NCBI GenBank assembly: GCA_030526765.1
Contig: JAUNCB010000050.1
Coordinates: 1-7,212, forward strand
Reading direction: 5' to 3'
Length of the DNA stretch: 7,212 nt
From: Bacillota bacterium
GTDB lineage: Bacteria; Bacillota; Clostridia; Lachnospirales; Anaerotignaceae
Shown here: positions 881 to 4,099 of the stretch, in pieces
How the letters are laid out: each line of letters begins with the position of its first letter
Numbering within the stretch: the stretch's first letter is position 1
Translations under genes and position numbers: made by a program
Notes under the pieces: generated by a model
Told to the model about the DNA's origin: nothing
Seen by the model: the letters and a program-made list of their open reading frames with translations, nothing else
Database searches by the model: none

Positions 881-1705
881 TTATTCTTCCTCCAATAATT
901 CTCTCACTCGTTTGATCGCCATCCCTGCATAAACAGAGGGCTCCTTCAGGTAGCCTGTTACCAGCTCAATGGTGGCCTGTCCGTCATAGCCCGCTTCCTG
1001 AATCTCTTTCAGCATTTCTTTTAACGGCAGACATCCGTCTCCCGGCAAGATATGGCTGTCGCTGACACCGTCATTATCAATGATATGCAGATACTGGAAG
1101 CGTTCCCCCAGACGGCGCACATATTCCGCCGCAGGCTCTCCTGTGGTAAAGGGAACCGCCAAATCCACCATCCCCACCAGATTGGGAGACGGCACCAGAG
1201 ACAGCGTTCTGTCTAAATCCCTTAAGCTGGTAATAACATTGCTCTCATAAACCGTCAGAGGCTCCAGAACAAGGGTCACGCCCTTCTGCTCCGCATATTC
1301 CGTCAATCTGCGCAGGCTTTTCATCAGACGCTTCATGATATCCATATCCTTTGCTTCATAGCCTGCATGGCCGGCGGAAATCAGCATTTTCTTCGCCCCG
1401 ATCTCCGCAGTGACATCAATGGCATCCTCCAGATACATCATGCTGCGTTCCCACTGTATTTCATCTCCCATCATATAATTATAGGGATACCCGTTATGCT
1501 CCGGTGTAAAGCATTCCACAGGCATTTCATATTTATCGATCAGTTCACGGATATGAACTGCTGTTTTCAATTTCAGATCGCCCACAAAGGCATGGGGATA
1601 CCCTCCCCATAGTTCAATATAATCATAACCAAAGCGCTTTGCATCGGCAAAGGCCTTTTCCAGCGGGTATCTTTGATACCCAGAAGTAAATAAACCAAGT
1701 CTCAT
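881..1705 (-). CDS. frlC: FrlC-like fructoselysine 3-epimerase (xylose isomerase-like TIM barrel)
   Basis: This 274-residue protein is predicted to interconvert psicoselysine and fructoselysine (C3 epimerisation), feeding the epimer into the FrlD/FrlB route. It is an AP-endonuclease-2/xylose-isomerase-like barrel. E148 (in LEPL), D181 (in MVD), H207 (in LHIID) and E247 (in IELV) sit where this family places its divalent metal ligands. E. coli FrlC, recalled from memory, shares the opening FTxGxQRxPxExAFxDA, the GGxPHAF stretch (34-40), NGYPYN (71-76) and LVPSPxL (170-175). The start at 1705 is preferred because GAGGAGG lies 6-7 bp upstream and the protein then begins like FrlC. An in-frame ATG at 1750 would add 15 residues encoded by the hairpin array and lacks a good ribosome binding site. 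Unlike the other junctions, frlC is separated from frlB by a 342-bp gap, so its expression may differ from the genes upstream. Confidence 0.92.
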   Translation of the reverse strand: MRLGLFTSGYQRYPLEKAFADAKRFGYDYIELWGGYPHAFVGDLKLKTAVHIRELIDKYEMPVECFTPEHNGYPYNYMMGDEIQWERSMMYLEDAIDVTAEIGAKKMLISAGHAGYEAKDMDIMKRLMKSLRRLTEYAEQKGVTLVLEPLTVYESNVITSLRDLDRTLSLVPSPNLVGMVDLAVPFTTGEPAAEYVRRLGERFQYLHIIDNDGVSDSHILPGDGCLPLKEMLKEIQEAGYDGQATIELVTGYLKEPSVYAGMAIKRVRELLEEE

Positions 1706-1710
1706 AGAAT

Positions 1711-1717
1711 CCTCCTC
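1711..1717 (-). promoter_or_regulatory. frlC ribosome binding site fixing the start at 1705
   Basis: Minus-strand GAGGAGG lies 5-11 bases before the ATG at 1703-1705, giving near-ideal Shine-Dalgarno spacing. It abuts the last hairpin of the intergenic array (stem end at 1718), so that hairpin could influence ribosome access. This is the reason for rejecting the longer reading frame that starts at 1750. Confidence 0.8.
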
Positions 1718-2049
1718 TCTCGAGCCTTCGAGAACCTGCGCCGCAGGCAAATAAGGGTGCAGGGAAATTATTTCCCTGCCAGGGTCTTTGCTGCCAGTAC
1801 TTCGTACTGGTCAGTTTCGCACTGTAAGCAGTGCTGCAGGGCATCGCCCAAGAAAGAAAAGCCGCCGCAAAAATTTGCAGCGGCAAAGCGGAAGGGTTCG
1901 GGAGCAAAGCGCTCCCGAATGCGATCCGCAGGCGGAATTCACTTCCGCTGAGGAAAACAGGGCGTTTCCAGCCTGCGCCGGAACGCCTCTGTTTATACAT
2001 CAGTTTCAACTCGCCAAAATATCATTTTGGCGAAGGGGCTCCGCCCCTT
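1718..2049 (-). repeat. Tandem array of about 13 different inverted repeats filling the frlB-frlC gap
   Basis: This stretch is noncoding, and about three quarters of it lies in back-to-back perfect or near-perfect palindromes. Hairpin spans, with stem lengths: 1718-1733 (6 bp), 1735-1747 (6), 1759-1779 (9, loop TTA), 1794-1810 (7, loop TTC), 1819-1834 (6), 1839-1849 (4, loop ATC), 1861-1884 (10 with one mismatch), 1897-1919 (9), 1920-1930 (4, loop ATC), 1932-1948 (6), 1955-1994 (14 with two bulged bases), 2011-2033 (10, loop ATC) and 2033-2049 (7, loop TCC). Loops are given as on the plus strand. The stems differ in sequence, so this is not a simple repeat, though a few 8-9 nt words recur. 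The array starts inside the frlB stop codon and ends against the frlC Shine-Dalgarno sequence. Its function is unknown. It may protect or process mRNA, attenuate transcription, or be a mosaic of palindromic elements. Confidence 0.88.
1851..1884 (-). terminator. Possible intrinsic terminator inside the frl operon
   Basis: On the minus strand the hairpin made of GCCGC/GCGGC and GCAAA/TTTGC arms (1861-1884, one internal mismatch) is followed directly by TTTTCTTTCT (1851-1860). A GC-rich stem next to a U-rich tract is the form of an intrinsic terminator. It is the only hairpin in the array with such a tail. If active, it would reduce frlC and frlD expression relative to frlB and the transporter. 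The T-tract has two C interruptions, so partial termination is more likely than complete. Confidence 0.6.
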
Positions 2050-3046
2050 AATAATCAAACTGTCTGTAATATCTTCTGATCGGCATGGGATGGCAGTTGA
2101 TCTTTTCCACATGCGCATCAATGCGGTTTGTTACAGCGTGCATCACCAGATGGCTGATGTGACCGCGATATTTTTCGCTGATCCCTTCGATGGCATAGTC
2201 TTTGGTATCAATGATTTCATAGTTTGCACAAACCTTAGGCAGGAATGCTACCACTCTTTCGCTCAGCTTTCTCTGGGAATCTTCGCCAACGAATACAGTT
2301 ACTGCTGTGTTCTTGTCAACGATTTCCAGCATACCATGGAAGAATTCCGCAGAATGGATAGATTTTGTTCTGATCCAGTGCTGTTCTTCCCAGTAGCACA
2401 TTGCATAGGAGTATGTTGCACCGTACTGGTTGCCTGCGCCTACGAAATAGTGGATGGGGTCTTCGCAGTGTCTTTCTGCATAAGCCTTACCAAAGTCATC
2501 TGCCGCCTTTTCCACTTCTACCAGACCTTTTGCCAGATGCTGATCCATTTCAGCATAGAATGCATCGTAGTCTGCGAATTCACCTGCATTTTTCATGAAG
2601 CAGTCTGCTGTCATGAAGAATTTCAGCTGTTCATTGGCAGGGTAAGAAATACACCAGTCTACCATTTCTGCCAGAGCTGCTGTTTCCTTATCAATGAAGC
2701 CAAATACCTTCGCACCTGCAGCCTGCGCTTTTTTCACGCCGTCTACCATTTCGATGGTGCTGCCTGTTACGGAGGAAATGATCACGATGGTACCTTCCCC
2801 GATGCGGTTATTGCCTGTCGCAATATATTCTGCTGCGTTTTCCACAAAGAAATTCAGAGAAGACATTTCTTTCATGTGTACTTCCGCCTGAAGGCAGGAA
2901 GCCCATGTGCCGCCGATTCCCAGCCAGCAGATGTTTTTATAGCCTTCTGCACAGATTTTATTTACGATTTCTTCGATCTGAGGACGCAGTGCCAGCGCAC
3001 CCTGCACGCTGTCGATCTGCGCCTGTTCGTCAAATTTAATAATCAT
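2048..3046 (-). CDS. frlB: FrlB-like fructosamine 6-phosphate deglycase (SIS domain)
   Basis: This 332-residue cytoplasmic protein has two SIS (phosphosugar isomerase) halves. It is predicted to hydrolyse fructoselysine 6-phosphate, or another Amadori 6-phosphate, to glucose 6-phosphate and the free amino acid. The first SIS unit shows GIGGTWAS (43-50) and the phosphosugar-binding loop SSVTGST (91-97). Aligned by eye to E. coli FrlB and Salmonella FraB, E221 and H237 keep the 16-residue spacing of the catalytic Glu/His pair known from FraB. HSAEFFHGMLEIV (231-243) corresponds to the usual ESGEFRHGPLEIV, and the end RRYYRQFDY matches the FrlB C-terminus. The Arg and Pro of EFRHGP are Phe and Met here, so the amino acid specificity may differ. 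The start follows the binding-protein stop by 6 bp with GGAGAA upstream. A GlmS-like isomerase is less likely, since there is no glutaminase domain and the neighbours are frlC and frlD. Confidence 0.88.
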   Translation of the reverse strand: MIIKFDEQAQIDSVQGALALRPQIEEIVNKICAEGYKNICWLGIGGTWASCLQAEVHMKEMSSLNFFVENAAEYIATGNNRIGEGTIVIISSVTGSTIEMVDGVKKAQAAGAKVFGFIDKETAALAEMVDWCISYPANEQLKFFMTADCFMKNAGEFADYDAFYAEMDQHLAKGLVEVEKAADDFGKAYAERHCEDPIHYFVGAGNQYGATYSYAMCYWEEQHWIRTKSIHSAEFFHGMLEIVDKNTAVTVFVGEDSQRKLSERVVAFLPKVCANYEIIDTKDYAIEGISEKYRGHISHLVMHAVTNRIDAHVEKINCHPMPIRRYYRQFDY

Positions 3047-3052
3047 ACGCTA

Positions 3053-4099
3053 TTATTCTCCAACTTTCAGTTTCTGGTAGTAGTCATTGTAGATTGTCAG
3101 AGCTTCGCCAACGTCTTCCTGGAAGAATACGTTTTCTTTGTAATCAAAGATTCTTGCAGGGTCGTTTTTGTATGTTTCGGAAGCAACTGCTACAGCTGCA
3201 TCGTTAGGGCAGGAATAAGGGAATTCATCCAGATTCTTAGCCATTACTTCGGGTTCGCAGATGTAGTTCAGGAATTTTTCAGCCAGATCAACATGTTTTG
3301 CACCTGTGGGGATTACATACAGGTCCATACCCAGCTGGATCGCATCGTCTGTGAAAGGAGCGATCTTGATTGTATCTTTTTCAGCCATTGCCCAGGAAGC
3401 GTTGCCGTCGTATGTAACAGCTACGGATACTGTGCCGTTTGTCAGGTTCTGTTCTGCATTGCCGTAAGCAGCAACGTTTTCGTTGAATTTAACCAGCCAT
3501 TCGTAAGCTTCAGCCAGTTCTGCTTCGTTTGTGGAGTTAGGGTCATAGCCCAGTGCTACCAGAGCCATAGGGAACAGGTTTCTTGCACCGTCGATTGTGG
3601 AGATCTGGCCTTTCAGCGCGGGATCCAGCAGATCGTTGTAGCCTGTGATTTCTACAGGGCATGTAGCGGAATCATATACTACATAGATGTAGTTCATCAG
3701 ATAAGGTACGCAGTAGCCCTTGGATACCCAGTAAGCATCGTTGATGTTAGAGGAGTTGGGCACGTTGTCCAGATTGATTTCTTCTACATAGCCGCCGGCA
3801 ATCAGGGATTCCATGTAAGCGTCGCAAGTCATGATCAGGTCATATTCTTCGCCGCCGCCAGCTGTCAGTTTGTTGATCGCATCCGCATTGTCACTCATGT
3901 AGGACAGGTTGATGGTGCAGCCGTTTTCTTCTTCAAATGCTGCGATCAGTTCGTCAGAAATGTACTGCTGCCACATATAGATGTTCAGCTCTGTACTTGC
4001 TTCTGCTGCAGGTTCTTCTGCAGGTGCGTCGGAGCCGCCGCAAGCTGCAACAGAAAATACCATTGCGCCAGTCAGCAGCAGTGCTAAAAATTTTTTCAT
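3053..4099 (-). CDS. potD: PotD-like extracellular substrate-binding lipoprotein of an ABC importer
   Basis: This 348-residue protein has a lipoprotein signal peptide: KK at 2-3, a hydrophobic core at 4-16 and lipobox VAAC with lipidated C20, followed by an acidic/Ala/Pro linker to about 36. It would be anchored outside the membrane and deliver ligand to the permeases. It matches E. coli PotD along its length, including a C-terminal DVGxAxxIYxxYYQKLKxG (329-347). Aligned by eye, the PotD ligand residues W34, Y37, D168, D257, Y293 and Q327 are kept (W43, Y46, D170, D259, Y295, Q327). E36, E171, W229 and W255 are Q45, N173, Y230 and G257. It therefore keeps the fold and part of the amine-binding pocket but probably not polyamine specificity. 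Given frlBCD downstream, the inferred ligand is an Amadori product such as fructoselysine. GGGAGG precedes the ATG, 15 bp after the permease stop. The symbol denotes the family, not a proven substrate. Confidence 0.9.
   Translation of the reverse strand: MKKFLALLLTGAMVFSVAACGGSDAPAEEPAAEASTELNIYMWQQYISDELIAAFEEENGCTINLSYMSDNADAINKLTAGGGEEYDLIMTCDAYMESLIAGGYVEEINLDNVPNSSNINDAYWVSKGYCVPYLMNYIYVVYDSATCPVEITGYNDLLDPALKGQISTIDGARNLFPMALVALGYDPNSTNEAELAEAYEWLVKFNENVAAYGNAEQNLTNGTVSVAVTYDGNASWAMAEKDTIKIAPFTDDAIQLGMDLYVIPTGAKHVDLAEKFLNYICEPEVMAKNLDEFPYSCPNDAAVAVASETYKNDPARIFDYKENVFFQEDVGEALTIYNDYYQKLKVGE

Follow-up and report, generated by a model that had tools for sequence, protein, structure and literature searches.

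The interval between the fructoselysine genes frlB and frlC is a composite of a central terminator-like hairpin and a dispersed repeat block on either side of it. The hairpin is shared with orthologous junctions, and the comparison of sequences makes it probable that the left repeat landed at a stem-loop as a non-autonomous mini-transposon of the IS1182 type.

Composition of the frlB–frlC array

The window (the whole stretch of 7,212 nucleotides that was analysed) carries an operon in which genes for a polyamine-type ABC transporter accompany the fructoselysine genes, with the array between frlB and frlC. At its other junctions the genes of the operon overlap or stand no more than 15 bp apart, in agreement with an earlier note on this DNA. 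The features of the interval and the genes that bound it are as follows.

2048–3046, minus strand: frlB (fructoselysine-6-phosphate deglycase-like), upstream of the array; open reading frame of 332 residues whose best NCBIfam match is the deglycase model, far below its cut-off
1888–2047, minus strand: left block, a family-1 hairpin repeat of 160 bp, lacking the 3′ tail and the terminal inverted repeats that complete units have
2035–2047 (P1), 2011–2033 (P2), 1955–1994 (P3), 1932–1948 (P4) and 1888–1930 (P5), minus strand: hairpins of the left block, from the fold and comparison with 46 other anchor hits
1852–1884, minus strand: central terminator-like hairpin (stem-loop 1861–1884, T-rich tract 1852–1860), shared with orthologous junctions
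1718–1851, minus strand: right block, a family-2 repeat with dispersed matches in genomes of the genus
1839–1849, 1819–1834, 1794–1810, 1759–1779, 1735–1747 and 1718–1733, minus strand: hairpins of the right block, from comparison, stem search and fold
about 1774–1849 (module B) and about 1737–1785 (module C), minus strand: modules of the right block, from matches in genomes of the genus
1711–1716, minus strand: Shine–Dalgarno sequence of frlC (AGGAGG), read from the sequence and partly paired in the local fold
881–1705, minus strand: frlC (fructoselysine 3-epimerase), downstream of the array; 348.1 bits with NCBIfam model NF007360 (cut-off 305)

The frlD product, like that of frlC, passes its NCBIfam cut-off (352.8 bits against 247). 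FrlB matches the deglycase model weakly (60.8 bits, cut-off 430), and the name frlB rests on this best match and on the neighbouring genes; the closest matches of FrlB among named public genomes are from Anaerotignum, which makes a species of that genus the very likely host. An open frame of 686 residues on the plus strand (2027–4087) runs antisense to frlB and to the gene for the substrate-binding protein. It is probably a shadow ORF, as the codon model places the coding strand as the minus strand.

A greedy search of 1718–2047 found 11 non-overlapping perfect stems of 5–10 bp, seven of which are of at least 6 bp. Dinucleotide shuffles of the same interval (n = 1000) gave a mean of 2.7 and a maximum of eight perfect stems, or a mean of 0.8 and a maximum of four when only stems of at least 6 bp were counted, and each of the 56 other 330-bp tiles of the window holds five at most. 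The chain of hairpins reported in the earlier note is therefore real and unlikely to be a product of chance, although its extent had been put slightly too high: instead of about 13 hairpins covering 75% of the interval, the local fold, in which pairs span at most 60 nt, forms 12 hairpin loops with 68% of the bases paired, the unrestricted fold has ten loops, and the perfect stems with their loops occupy 57% of 1718–2047. The span was correctly described as running from stop codon to Shine–Dalgarno sequence, with the first stem starting at 2047, adjoining the frlB stop codon (2048–2050), and the last ending at 1718, adjoining the AGGAGG at 1711–1716. Folding of the minus-strand RNA against shuffled controls, suggested earlier as a check, gave −169.8 kcal/mol for 1700–2060 compared with −121.05 kcal/mol (s.d. 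5.78) for 100 shuffles (z = −8.4). The folding energies of the two strands of the array are about equal (−161.2 and −157.3 kcal/mol).

The central hairpin consists of a 10-bp stem followed by TTTTCTTTC. In L009, L010, L011 and L028, which are orthologous junctions, frlB and frlC are separated by a single hairpin with a T-rich tract, the same hairpin that stands in the middle of the array in the window, and both the left and the right block are absent. The gap contains no gene at these four junctions, so that the idea of the array as a decayed gene is not borne out where the orthologous junctions were read. At the same junction in genome G007 (locus L167) the central hairpin is accompanied by a portion of the right block, and the left block is missing. 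The blocks are thus present or absent by lineage. The identity to the window is 86.6% for L009 and 87.2% for G007 in frlC, and 91.8% (whole gene) and 94.0% (over 469 nt), respectively, in frlB; since the two are about equally near to the window, no strict order of arrival of the blocks is claimed.

With its G+C-rich stem, T tract and shared site, the central hairpin has the sequence characteristics of an intrinsic terminator, and we regard it as a putative one that may adjust how strongly the downstream genes are expressed relative to those upstream. Hairpins of this terminator-like kind occur no further than 150 nt from the frlB stop codon in 15 of 45 orthologous loci, compared with 0.46 loci expected on shuffling; the count comes from a second attempt with a loosened detector and rerun shuffles on loci entered by hand, mainly from the upper part of a list of 80. 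The first, stricter detector gave ten of 45 with 2.7 expected and overlooked hairpins that are visible in L009–L011.

The search for the hairpins in the host genome and its relatives, also suggested in the earlier note, identified both flanking blocks as dispersed repeats. The right block has 24 matches in six of the nine genomes of the genus, the window's own counted. Positions 1737–1785 recur with 100% identity at one place each in G002 and G004, module B was found at loci of G006, G007 and G008, and module C at many places in the genus. Family-2 copies also open with a small G+C-rich hairpin. The dispersal of the right block and its absence from orthologues suggest that it is mobile.

The family-1 repeat and its genomic setting

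The left block has the family-1 layout of P1, P2, a linker, a bulged P3, the motif TCCTC, P4 and a P5 interrupted by an internal loop. From 36 of the 47 anchor hits a covariance model (R1) was made of the 117-position core. Left out of the structure alignment were L170 and L176 (false), L163 (a probable duplicate of L117), L117 itself, L095 (P3 missing), L003, L106 and L110 (expanded P3), and L162 with two copies from L164 (nested insert). R1 matches the window at 1888–1996 with 105.4 bits and finds at least seven matches in the host genome, that of the window included, scores having been computed for 150 of 775 candidates. Searching the same genome by DNA found diverged family-1 copies; extended to other genomes, the DNA search detected the family in all nine of the genus and in 14 of 31 relatives, genus included. 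Of 246 genomes sampled across the order, 40 contain family 1 by the model (E up to 1e-4), as do, among the genomes listed, 23 of 32 of the window's own taxonomic family; at most 15 candidates were scored per genome in this order-wide search, and the copy numbers are lower bounds. Among the sampled genomes the family spans three taxonomic families of the order.

Rfam gave no match in the window, whether the limit was the gathering score or an E-value of up to 1; two matches below threshold, to mir-216 and ncr952, involve copies L008 and L004, where they touch on the 5′ hairpins or the flank. A search for plasmid or phage carriage in distant mode with a single copy (L002:9–170) found no match. 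Family 1 is unnamed in open-licence PMC texts on palindromic repeats of Lachnospiraceae or Anaerotignum and on IS1182 MITEs (best 20 of 108, 15 of 27 and 15 of 190 matches), and of the family consensus strings sought in print only the shortest was matched, in texts on other subjects.

The surroundings of 44 of the 47 copies (all except L170, L176 and L163) were assigned with a codon-usage gene model trained on the genes of the window. None of the 44 lies inside a called gene. Where both neighbours were called (37 copies), these are codirectional in 26 cases (18 sense, eight antisense), convergent in nine and divergent in two. The core starts 48–75 nt past the stop codon in 17 of the 29 copies with an upstream gene on the same strand, which places P1 close to the stop codon. 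Some sites are kept between species: the copy at L004 follows a T-box leader and precedes a gene, and L106 and L155 are the same locus in other genomes; L091/L149 is another such site.

Several individual loci merit description. At L004/L106/L155 family 1 stands between a T-box-type terminator and the next gene, and the tip of P3 is very variable. At L008 (1501–1960) the repeat directly follows an SRP RNA gene. Palindromic units, identified by eye, are nested in P4 (L114, L183) or P5 (L162, L164) of family-1 hairpins, with CAAAGTG[AC]TGA at the 3′ side of the nested unit. L183 (G004:C8) holds a long array at about 1150–1600, in which a family-2 copy, itself upstream of a gene, comes after family 1 with its P4 nest. 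At L160/L174 and at L152/L188 the same junction carries family 1 in one genome and family 2 in another, as if it were a hot spot.

The kept sites bear on an alternative that we consider unlikely, namely that the array is a selected intra-operon RNA element which tunes the frlB:frlC ratio or protects the upstream mRNA, its mobility being incidental. The terminator-like hairpin at the junction in 15 of 45 loci is in keeping with such an element, as is the covariation of the family core. Over 33 pairs and 36 sequences, 93.2% of the cells pair, and double-sided changes occur in 126 cells compared with 33.8 in shuffles (none of 500 as high), a score that can be inflated by kinship among the sequences; further pair types number 33, below the 36.7 of the shuffles. 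Against a selected RNA element, both blocks are missing from L009, L010, L011 and L028, the copies stand beside unrelated genes in either orientation, and the two strands fold about equally well. The structured noncoding RNA listed in the earlier note as a possible role accordingly fares only in part: the core covaries, but Rfam has no match, neither strand is favoured by folding and G–U pairs are scarce.

This scarcity (12 G–U cells of about 1100 paired) is unevenly distributed. P4 and the inner part of P5 have 66 double changes and a single G–U cell, whereas the outer P5 stem shows the opposite, with nine G–U cells and no double changes. Because P4 and inner P5 change in pairs almost without G–U intermediates, we read the family-1 hairpins as acting at the level of DNA rather than RNA, possibly kept perfect by template switching. 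The same pattern, in which one arm appears to have been copied from the other, would suit a further alternative: that the perfect hairpins formed where they now stand, through template switching at imperfect palindromes, and that mobile elements had no part in it. Template switching in place leaves unexplained, however, that the same core, with its conserved linkers, bulge and internal loop, recurs at unrelated places.

Complete units, their target sites and a candidate transposase

In G211, G226 and G234 the family-1 copies extend to a sharp-ended unit of 228 bp. The G211 unit begins with TCAGGGTGTC at its 5′ end and finishes with GACAGTCTGA at its 3′ end, and copy L112 of G029 begins with TCAGCGTGTCGA and likewise finishes with GACAGTCTGA; in both, the ends form imperfect terminal inverted repeats. 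Among the matches listed, inspection by eye found only short internal inserts and no gene-sized version of the unit.

Flanking duplications were sought around 24 complete copies, defined as distinct matches covering at least positions 8–220 of the unit, at loci of G211, G226, G234 and G014. Direct repeats of 16–41 bp flank 14 of these near-complete copies and outscore every one of 552 mismatched control pairs, the highest of which reached 12; in ten of the 14, both repeats lie within four bases of the unit ends. The remaining ten copies have nothing above the control, four of them showing end matches of 6–7 bp, a level that the controls reach. An earlier flank test, which shares some copies with the present one, had found direct repeats unequalled by controls in ten of 55 copies, three of them from the genus of the window (L094, L157 and L098). 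The duplicated sequence varies from copy to copy, several examples resembling host terminators, and by a score of our own 12 of the 14 flanking repeats are palindromic at their ends, compared with 35 of 280 windows shifted into the flank. For L222, orthologous flanks occur without the unit in G246 and G014, the G014 site having one hairpin and a T tract, although with 71–74% identity the sites have diverged too far to decide the matter.

Sharp-ended units with duplicated flanks also have no explanation in template switching at the site and contradict it as the origin of the array, for which we hold it to be very improbable; it may have acted on the stems after insertion. Taken as a whole, family 1 is short, non-coding and dispersed, with terminal inverted repeats and target-site duplication (14 of 24), as MITEs are, and at the level of the family we file it with the IS1182-type MITEs. 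The left block of the window has no recognisable 3′ tail or end repeat and no flanking duplication above the control. A tail-like end was found in four of 44 copies from the genus of the window and its nearest relatives, where shuffles lead one to expect about 1.3. Lacking both the ends and the duplication, the window's copy is classed as a truncated relative of the family-1 MITEs and not as a complete MITE, and for the same reason its arrival by stem-loop-targeted transposition is something that we infer.

The candidate for moving family 1 is an IS1182-family transposase. Model NF033551 was matched above its cut-off in one of 18 and one of 20 genomes (two of 38 carrier or control genomes), with weaker matches in two and five further genomes of the respective sets and no match in the genome of the window. 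The transposase of G029 (416.9 bits, cut-off 270) is adjoined at locus L263 by a family-1 unit, and an identical 25-base palindrome stands before the unit, between the unit and the transposon, and after the transposon. The transposon ends are TCAGTCTGTCAA on both sides and the 3′ end of the unit is TCAGACTGTCGA in the same sense, so that the ends of the family-1 unit resemble those of the IS1182-family transposon. The G029 units L101 and L112 likewise lie between copies of a palindrome. Partial relatives of the transposase occur in G071 and G126 with ends of this kind, adjoining palindromes; at one place, G126:C2, the palindrome beside one transposon end is not the one beside the other. The G012 transposase, also above the cut-off, has other ends. 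It is the adjacency in G029, the similarity of the ends and the common target that point to IS1182.

The IS1634 family, which is known for long direct repeats, was considered as a mobiliser and rejected, with none of 18 genomes above the cut-off and one weak match in G211.

Proposed origin and relation to known systems

Complete relatives of the left block often stand between two copies of a host hairpin, which makes the repeats likely to be tiny hairpin-landing transposons. Among the roles put forward in the earlier note, the accumulation of palindromic elements at a landing site is the one supported, by the dispersal of both blocks, their absence from L009, L010, L011 and L028 and the position of complete relatives between duplicated palindromes. 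In the proposed mechanism, an IS1182-type transposase would attack the feet of a stem-loop or cruciform, and the whole hairpin would be duplicated (or replaced) as a result. The truncated left copy of the window would have come by this stem-loop route, and the right block may move by a similar one. As hairpins are what the elements consist of, every insertion would bring further targets with it and arrays could grow by accretion. The array would be transcribed with the operon and is predicted to lower or uncouple the expression of frlC–frlD relative to the upstream genes; with a terminator-like stem set among stable hairpins, the fraction of transcripts extending into frlC and frlD would be expected to shift.

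Stem-loop targeting has a precedent in IS1272, a member of the IS1182 family. According to the portions of the two reports drawn on here, IS1272 targets stem-loops, terminators included, and removes the stem-loop, leaving no duplication (PMC4923244, PMC5678879); the model in the latter includes one pathway that joins at the 5′ feet of the stem-loop and duplicates it whole (PMC5678879). On these descriptions, family 1 resembles IS1272/IS1182 in that its ends adjoin stem-loops, often terminators, without preference for primary sequence, and it is further tied to the IS1182 family by the transposase with similar end repeats that stands beside a unit in G029. It differs from IS1272 as there described in that many copies show duplication of the entire hairpin, rather than its replacement or deletion without target duplication, and in that the units are gene-less and hairpin-built. 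By analogy, the hairpin duplications look like products of the pathway that duplicates the whole stem-loop (PMC5678879).

Bacterial MITEs, as characterized in the part of PMC3049150 used here, are likewise short, non-coding and strongly paired, with terminal inverted repeats, duplications and ends like those of full transposons. Family 1 stands apart from them through the length (16–41 bp) and mostly palindromic character of its duplications, and the window's copy through its want of ends and duplication. The BOX, RUP and SPRITE elements of Streptococcus pneumoniae are comparable as interspersed structured repeats of about 100–200 bp, BOX being modular and SPRITE terminator-like. They are set apart by their description in the same part of PMC3049150, which gives one family as without a comparable empty site or clear flanking evidence and has no hairpin duplication. 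REPs and the GTAG- and CGTC-tagged palindromes are, like family 1, extragenic and mainly 3′ of genes in the account drawn from PMC3733652, but the REPs described there are 20–40 bp with tagged ends. A REP-type nature of the blocks, with a RAYT (Y1) transposase as their mobiliser, seems to us extremely unlikely: the copies are extragenic, palindromic and mostly not between divergent genes, and Y1_Tnp is matched in 16 of the 31 genomes examined, but it has no match in the genome of the window (G000, 1.64 Mb, 356 contigs, about 96% complete), the genus genomes G002, G006, G007 and G008 carry family 1 without a Y1_Tnp match, and the units are of 160–228 bp with terminal inverted repeats and target duplications. 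Genome G018, of the same taxonomic family, has 37 Y1 transposase matches, of which a considerable share are broken.

For stem-loop-targeted transposition of IS1182 type, a wider and more tentative proposal, which we think possible rather than probable, is that the Lachnospirales harbour a self-feeding system. Hairpin-built mini-transposons and an IS1182-type transposase would recognize stem-loops or cruciforms whatever their sequence, duplicate the entire host terminator on inserting and add at least five fresh hairpins as targets each time. Terminators across these genomes would in this way be multiplied, set inside one another and rewired into long hairpin arrays, with the perfection of the stems maintained at the level of DNA.

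Family 1 is a repeat family without an Rfam match that lies mostly after genes and near terminators, where it could alter transcript ends. Its copies are apparent natural cases of the duplicating pathway and are numerous enough to test the model as it is set out in the part of PMC5678879 drawn on here. The family-1 elements would also provide a concrete route by which long hairpin arrays may come to stand between genes.
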